DNA of 64,000 bases. Source: Thermaerobacter sp. PB12/4term (lineage in GTDB: Bacteria > Bacillota > Sulfobacillia > Thermaerobacterales > Thermaerobacteraceae). A program made the translations under genes and the position numbers. Shown in pieces: positions 58,909 through 60,679 of the stretch. The DNA lies in the NCBI RefSeq assembly GCF_003403315.2, contig NZ_CP048407.1, positions 1,860,001 through 1,924,000 of the forward strand. Direction: 5' to 3'. The notes beneath the pieces were generated by a model. That model was not told the origin of the DNA, made no database searches, and was given only the letters and a program-made list of their open reading frames with translations. The first letter of the stretch is position 1. The number at the start of each line of letters is the position of its first letter.

Positions 58909-59409
58909 TCAACCACGGCCGCCCGGTTGCGCGCCGCGGGCGAAGGCATAGGACGCCTGCAGGATGGTCCACACGACCTCCAGCTCATCGTCGTCCCGGG
59001 GACCGTAGACCATCATCGCCGTGGGCGGCAGCCAGCCCCGGCGGGCGACCGGATGCAACTCGCCCCAACCCTTGGCGACCACCACGCGGGCCGTGGCTTC
59101 GGGCAGCATGAGATGCAGGCTCCCGTCGTAGGGCGGGTGCAGGTGGGCGAACTCCCGGCCGATCATGAACGCCTCCGGCGGCCCCGCCGCCAGCTCCTCA
59201 TCGAGGATGAAGGCCCGGGCTCCCGGAACGGAGATCCCGCTAGGCCCCACGCGCACCCCGGGCAGAGCCCGGGCCCGCTCAAACAATGCCTCCTGCAGCC
59301 GGGGGGGAGCGTTCTGGTCCAGCTGCTGGTGGGGGTTCGCCGGGGTCGTCCGGGGCCTTGGACCCCGGCGTTCGGGCAAAGAATCAGTCGCCGGCATGGA
59401 TACCACCAT
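58909..59409 (-). CDS. DUF5519-like protein
   Basis: 166 residues. The core 'GREFAHLHPPYDGSLHLMLP' with 'VVVAKGWGELHP' fits the short luciferase-like DUF5519 family, whose function is unknown. The first 40 residues are polar and low in complexity. ATG at 59409 with AGGGGGG upstream. No operon partner on the same strand within 140 bp. Confidence 0.7.
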   Translation of the reverse strand: MVVSMPATDSLPERRGPRPRTTPANPHQQLDQNAPPRLQEALFERARALPGVRVGPSGISVPGARAFILDEELAAGPPEAFMIGREFAHLHPPYDGSLHLMLPEATARVVVAKGWGELHPVARRGWLPPTAMMVYGPRDDDELEVVWTILQASYAFARGAQPGGRG

Positions 59410-59556
59410 TACCAGGCCCCCTTGTCCATGCCTACTCCACCTCGATGCAGGTGACCAGAGAGGGCAAGCCCGCGATCCGGCTACAGCCCTCTCCGGTGGC
59501 CGCGGGTTCGGCCCCTACAGGCCGATCCAGCGGCAGGGCGAGGCCCTGCCGGCAGG

Positions 59557-60330
59557 TTACTGCCCCGGCCCGGTCGGTTCTTCCGTGCCGCCCGGCTGCC
59601 CGGGGTGCAGGTCCAGCGCCCGCCAGATGGCCGACCAGAGATAGTCCTCCGGCACCGCGCCCTCGAATGAGACACGGTCGTTGATCACCGTCTTGGGCAC
59701 GGCGAATACCTGGTACTGCTGGGCCAGCTGCGGGTAGGAGGTGGCCTCCACGGCCTCGGCGGTCACCAGCGGGCTCTGCATGGCCAGGTTGATCGCGGAG
59801 CGCACGGCCCGCGGGCAATGCGGTCAGGTGGGGGTGAAGAAGACCCGCAGGTGAACGGGCCGGCCCGCCTCGCCAAGCAGGGCCAGAGCTTCGGCCTGGT
59901 GACCGGCCTGGCTCCCCTCCCCGCCGGCAGCGGGTGCGTCGCCCCCGGCGCCTTCACCGCCGGCGGGGACTGGCGCCGAGGCCTCGATCAGCGCTTCGAC
60001 CAGCGTCGCGAACTCGTAGCCGAGGGGCGGTCCGACGAACCGCACCCGGCCGCCGGCCCGGCCGTGGAGCACCACCGTGGGCGGCCGCTCGACACCCAGT
60101 TCCCTCGCCCGCTGGCTCTCCCGGTCGATGTCCCTGACCTGGAGGCGGACCGAAGGATGAAGCTGGGCCAGCTCCTTCATCAGCTCGACCGTTTCCTCGC
60201 AGCCGGGACACTCGCGGCCGGGAACGAACAGCCGCATGTCACGGGTGAATACCTCCACGTCGACGGGGCCAGCCAGGTCCTGGAGCCGTTCCTGCAGCAC
60301 CTTCCGGTCTTGCTCGCGAATCAGCGCCAT
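59557..60330 (-). CDS. Two-fold thioredoxin/glutaredoxin (Pdo-like) protein with in-frame TGA at the second CxxC
   Basis: 257 residues if the TGA at 59824-59826 is read through. The first thioredoxin fold has C41/C44 ('GRECPGCEE'). The second fold begins 'HLRVFFTPT', then codon 169 is TGA, then 'PHCPRAV...' with C172, and continues in the same frame through 'VFAVPKTVINDRVSFEG' (cis-Pro) to the end. In related protein disulfide oxidoreductases this site reads TPTCPHC, so TGA replaces the nucleophilic Cys, giving a UxxC motif if selenocysteine is inserted. Nonsense mutation or a base error are alternatives. ATG at 60330 behind GGAGG. Likely electron donor for peroxidases or other thiol enzymes. 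Confidence 0.8.
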
Positions 60331-60679
60331 ACCATCGCCTCCACTGCGGGGGCCAGCCCGAGCCCCGTCCCCGTCGGCGACGGGGTTCGTAGCCGGGTGT
60401 TTGCTTCCCCGGCACGGCCCACCTTTCCGCCAAGGGCACCGGCGCTTGCGGGCGCCGTCGTGGCCGCGGCCGCCCGCACCTTCTTGTGACGGCCGCGCGT
60501 GACTTCCAGCCCCAGCATAGCCTGGGCGCGGAGGCGGCTCAAGCCACGACTGGCACCGGGGCCGGCCACGCCCTGGCCAGCGGCCGGGACGGTACGCCGG
60601 ATACGGGTCCGGACCTGACGGGTTTCCTGTGCGCAGGACAGGGGGGCATGCGGGCGCCCCCCTGGTGCACCGTCCCCCG
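60331..60679. other. Intergenic region
   Basis: About 350 bp between the small secreted protein gene and the thioredoxin-like gene, both minus strand. No recognisable gene, promoter or terminator was found; open frames here are Arg/Pro-rich. Confidence 0.4.

Follow-up and report, generated by a model that had tools for sequence, protein, structure and literature searches.

Members of the TIGR02187 family with a UxxC motif already appear in reviews as a predicted selenoprotein family, under the name “homolog of AhpF N-terminal domain / Grx-like domain protein” and with ABB15282.1 as an example (PMC9312934, PMC13188914), and the selenocysteine (Sec) form had been reported earlier in Carboxydothermus and Symbiobacterium (PMC1794560, Table 3). 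The family, formerly named GlrX_arch, is now PDO_seleno_TRX, after the protein disulfide oxidoreductases (PDOs). In the Sulfolobus system, PDO is supplied by NADPH and thioredoxin reductase and in turn regenerates peroxiredoxins, and mutants of Sulfolobus PDO show that thiol-transferase activity depends fundamentally on the C-terminal site (PMC7465337).

Here, we analyzed a gene within 64,000 nucleotides of Thermaerobacter sp. PB12/4term (hereafter “the window”, C1:1860001-1924000 of a complete, single-contig genome of 2.82 Mb). This gene is a well-supported, ordinary member of the listed selenoprotein family: it has in common with the listed proteins the UxxC motif and a profile score above cut-off, while it differs from them in a longer linker between its two folds and a C-terminal tail, and its host in carrying three Sec paralogues in one genome. 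A literature search for a Sec-PDO gene in Thermaerobacter found nothing, and the additions made by this locus are modest, i.e., three Sec-PDO genes in a single genome, and a Cys homologue that retains the hairpin of its Sec sister.

Reading frame, family, and fold

The gene lies on the minus strand, in a frame running from 60330 to 59557 that contains a single in-frame TGA at 59826-59824 (U169 when TGA is translated as U) and ends with a TAA stop codon at 59559-59557. The features considered below are:

59557..60330, minus strand: PDO gene of TIGR02187, 257 residues if the TGA is translated as Sec, ending in a TAA stop (from profile and fold matches)
60199..60210, minus strand: CPGC (C41-C44), redox motif within the N-terminal thioredoxin fold (from sequence; absent from some homologues)
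59824..59826, minus strand: in-frame TGA, U169, leading residue of the UPHC site in the C-terminal half (from translation, homologues, and alignment)
59815..59817, minus strand: codon of C172, the putative resolving Cys (an invariant alignment column)
59794..59813, minus strand: putative bacterial SECIS hairpin, a 7-bp stem with one bulged U (from RNA folding and a published model)

A sequence-only reading of this locus had described one frame interrupted solely by the TGA, with the TGA at the first Cys of a second CxxC motif and the remainder of the same domain, including its cis-Pro, beyond it. Each of these statements was borne out: translation yields 257 uninterrupted residues once the TGA is read through, U169 sits in the context FFTPT-U-PHC-P at a position that is Cys in non-Sec homologues, and P212, downstream of the TGA, occupies the cis-proline position of the thioredoxin fold. 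The joined product scored 197.5 bits against the NCBIfam profile TIGR02187 (cut-off 185), with residues 1-168 matching profile positions 2-110 and the part following the TGA matching positions 149-207. Both halves match the same family profile, in different and consecutive sections.

Consistent domain and structure assignments were obtained by other means. Pfam returned Thioredoxin_3 and glutaredoxin-type domains, and the AlphaFold2 model displayed two thioredoxin folds in tandem (pLDDT 90.4). Foldseek searches with this predicted fold matched the PDO structures 2ayt, 2ywm, 1a8l, and 1j08, the matches to PDOs from Aquifex, Pyrococcus, and Aeropyrum extending over the full length. Archaeal and Aquifex PDOs (1a8l, 1j08, 2ayt, 2ywm, 2hls) resemble the window protein in having two thioredoxin folds with a redox motif in each, although the two best-aligned, 1a8l and 1j08, have Cys at the position taken by Sec in the window gene. 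The AhpF N-terminal domain (1zyn, 6il7, 5h29) also adopts a double thioredoxin-like fold, but it matched the window protein less well and is a piece of a flavoprotein rather than a stand-alone selenoprotein. Judging from profile and model, the gene product is a two-thioredoxin-fold protein disulfide oxidoreductase of TIGR02187, and no signal peptide was evident in its 257 residues. Examination of the flanking genes revealed no functional link to the PDO gene; the small protein encoded downstream (58909-59409, minus strand) carries the Pfam “Luciferase” domain PF17648.

Conservation of the in-frame TGA

The TGA could be a true stop, created by nonsense mutation or base error, in which case the gene would encode a 168-residue, single-fold protein followed by a dead 3′ part. 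An ORF of 168 residues does extend from the ATG to the TGA, and TGA is used normally as a stop in the host genome, where it terminates paralogues. Yet the identical TGA recurs well beyond this gene: orthologues from three other genomes retain it (98, 98, and 75% identical), it occupies the homologous position in four genomes belonging to the same taxonomic family, counting orthologues and paralogues, and many more distant genomes have it as well. The sequence-only reading had suggested asking whether this codon might be TGC, and TGA is what the other genomes show. Within the host itself, two further Sec-PDO genes (C1:250030-250692, L070/L100; C1:2618420-2619244, L069/L101) both encode TPT-U-P-[YH]-C and both end on a TGA; since TGA is thus Sec codon and terminal stop within the same paralogue, its decoding is context-dependent.

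The sequence downstream of the TGA also behaves as coding. Differences from the 75% identical orthologue were distributed as 6/10/28 across first, second, and third codon positions, and those from a paralogue as 10/14/32. They fall mostly at third positions, i.e., the coding pattern and its constraint continue past the TGA. A 168-residue form would furthermore lack the family-invariant TPT-C/U-P-x-C-P site: TPT[C/U]PxCP is invariant in an alignment of 37 homologues, residues 166-173 varying only at position 171 and by the C/U exchange, and Cys faces U169 in the Cys homologues. Given the conservation of the TGA, we consider a true stop very unlikely, and the earlier concern about a mutation or base error is countered by this conservation across genomes and paralogues together with the downstream coding constraint.

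The Sec form was seen only in selA-positive genomes. Across 61 genomes (the host and its relatives), it was found in 22 of 44 selA-positive genomes and in none of 17 selA-negative ones (Fisher p = 1.8e-4, uncorrected and overstating independence, as the homologues are related by descent). Only Cys forms occurred among the loci read in eight genomes, three of which lack selA. At the scale of the phylum, a TPT-UGA-P-x-C-P codon pattern was detected in 15 of 398 genomes drawn from it (10 of 266 genera), compared to 2 of 398 for a reversed control pattern. In a phylogenetic tree, the window gene and its long-linker paralogue fell in an all-Sec clade confined to their own taxonomic family; its nearest outgroup, on a long branch, was a Cys protein belonging to the same order.

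Selenocysteine machinery and a putative SECIS hairpin

All components that the sequence-only reading had proposed to look for, with a lack of selA, selB, or tRNA-Sec speaking against selenocysteine, are encoded in the genome: tRNA-Sec (C1:358301, anticodon TCA, 82.2 bits), selA (C1:1381384, 578 bits, cut-off 267.9), selB (C1:1496292, 315.9 bits, cut-off 242), and selD (C1:974279, 402.6 bits). The selB match spans only positions 2-348 of a 581-position profile, within an open frame of 767 amino acids. The selD gene has an in-frame TGA of its own, in TGKAGUGCK (L064:1531); the TGA in GUGCK is the usual SelD Sec site, and SelD of the host is itself a predicted selenoprotein.

This machinery also bears on a selenium-free readthrough of the TGA by a near-cognate tRNA, e.g., that for Trp. 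The frame would indeed be open whichever sense residue the TGA gives, but non-Sec homologues align Cys rather than Trp, Sec copies are restricted to selA-positive genomes, and a dedicated tRNA-Sec(TCA) is present, making such readthrough extremely improbable. Two separate genes, i.e., an N-terminal 168-residue protein and an 82-residue protein reinitiated from GTG 59805, can be practically dismissed: an ORF does span 59805-59557, but its product would start inside the active-site helix and have no redox residues, while the frame and active-site residues around the TGA are kept in all homologues.

No obvious SECIS had been recognized previously, only a small GCC/GGC hairpin. This assessment did not hold, as a 7-bp stem folds downstream of the UGA with an apical loop CGUGC at 59806-59802, 17 nt separating UGA and loop. 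Bacterial SECIS elements are modeled with a loop of 3-9 nt, a G within the first two nucleotides of this loop, and an upper stem of 4-16 bp, 16-37 nt from the UGA (PMC13188914). The window hairpin fits this model, a fit eased by high GC since 19% of synonymous sequences reach seven pairs. Taken alone, it gave a modest signal against a synonymous-codon null (p = 0.05 for energy and p = 0.19 for stem pairs). Across the family the signal was clear: the SECIS region folded better than synonymous versions in Sec genes (mean z = -1.38, n = 32) but not in Cys genes (mean z = +0.10, n = 13; p = 2e-4, a figure that likewise overstates independence given common descent). The hairpin is thus seen in the Sec genes of the family and is mostly absent from Cys genes. 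Several different stems carrying GU or GG at the apex occur repeatedly, including CCGGGC/GCCTGG, CCGTGC/GCACGG, and GGCCGC/GCGGCT.

A single 6-pair register imposed on all Sec genes failed, because of the bulged U in the window group and the shifted hairpins of L033/L036/L037, L023/L047, and L090-L092. For those genes, counting covariation pair by pair in a single register is therefore uninformative. An Rfam scan of 59400-60500 returned no SECIS family match, only chance matches below gathering scores. Separately, the Cys homologue L021 (position 1567, on its minus strand) carries a hairpin identical in sequence to that of its same-genus Sec sister (L023:1585). A Sec-to-Cys change, of the sort documented in PMC1794560, may have left this hairpin behind as a remnant SECIS.

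Taken together, the machinery in the genome, the TGA kept in relatives and paralogues, the constraint downstream of it, and the family-wide hairpin lead us to read the TGA at U169 as Sec, inserted by standard bacterial decoding to give a 257-residue PDO. We infer the actual insertion from these observations, and hold this interpretation to be nearly certain.

Proposed mechanism and implications

In the Sec interpretation, SelD would provide selenophosphate, SelA would convert Ser-tRNA-Sec to Sec-tRNA-Sec, and SelB would bring the latter to the UGA preceding the hairpin at 59813-59794. Within the protein, the C-terminal UPHC would form the main redox centre, the selenolate of Sec169 attacking the substrate disulfide and Cys172 probably resolving the mixed selenenyl sulfide. 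The CPGC of the N-terminal fold would be another dithiol, which may pass electrons on or work together with UPHC. Seven Sec homologues (L022, L026, L029, L031, L032, L034, and L038) have lost the N-terminal CxxC while keeping the C-terminal UPxC, suggesting that the essential site is the C-terminal one, in agreement with the Sulfolobus mutants and with the NADPH-fed Sulfolobus PDO system (PMC7465337). The electron donor is likely a flavoprotein disulfide reductase; a gene for a CoA-disulfide-reductase-like flavoprotein adjoins the C1:250030 paralogue on the same strand, and its product is a possible donor for that paralogue.

A more far-reaching suggestion is that roles are divided among the three Sec-PDO paralogues maintained in the genus, the long-linker form in the window being a lineage-specific selenoenzyme with its own substrate, unlike known PDOs; we regard this as rather doubtful. 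In practice, a gene caller treating this TGA as a stop would end the protein ahead of its active site, and both annotation and functional inference would then be wrong. Finally, closely related genomes carry either the Sec or the Cys version, with one such pair inside a genus (L023 and L021, respectively), and the family is therefore suited to comparing what Sec contributes in a thermophile-type disulfide oxidoreductase.
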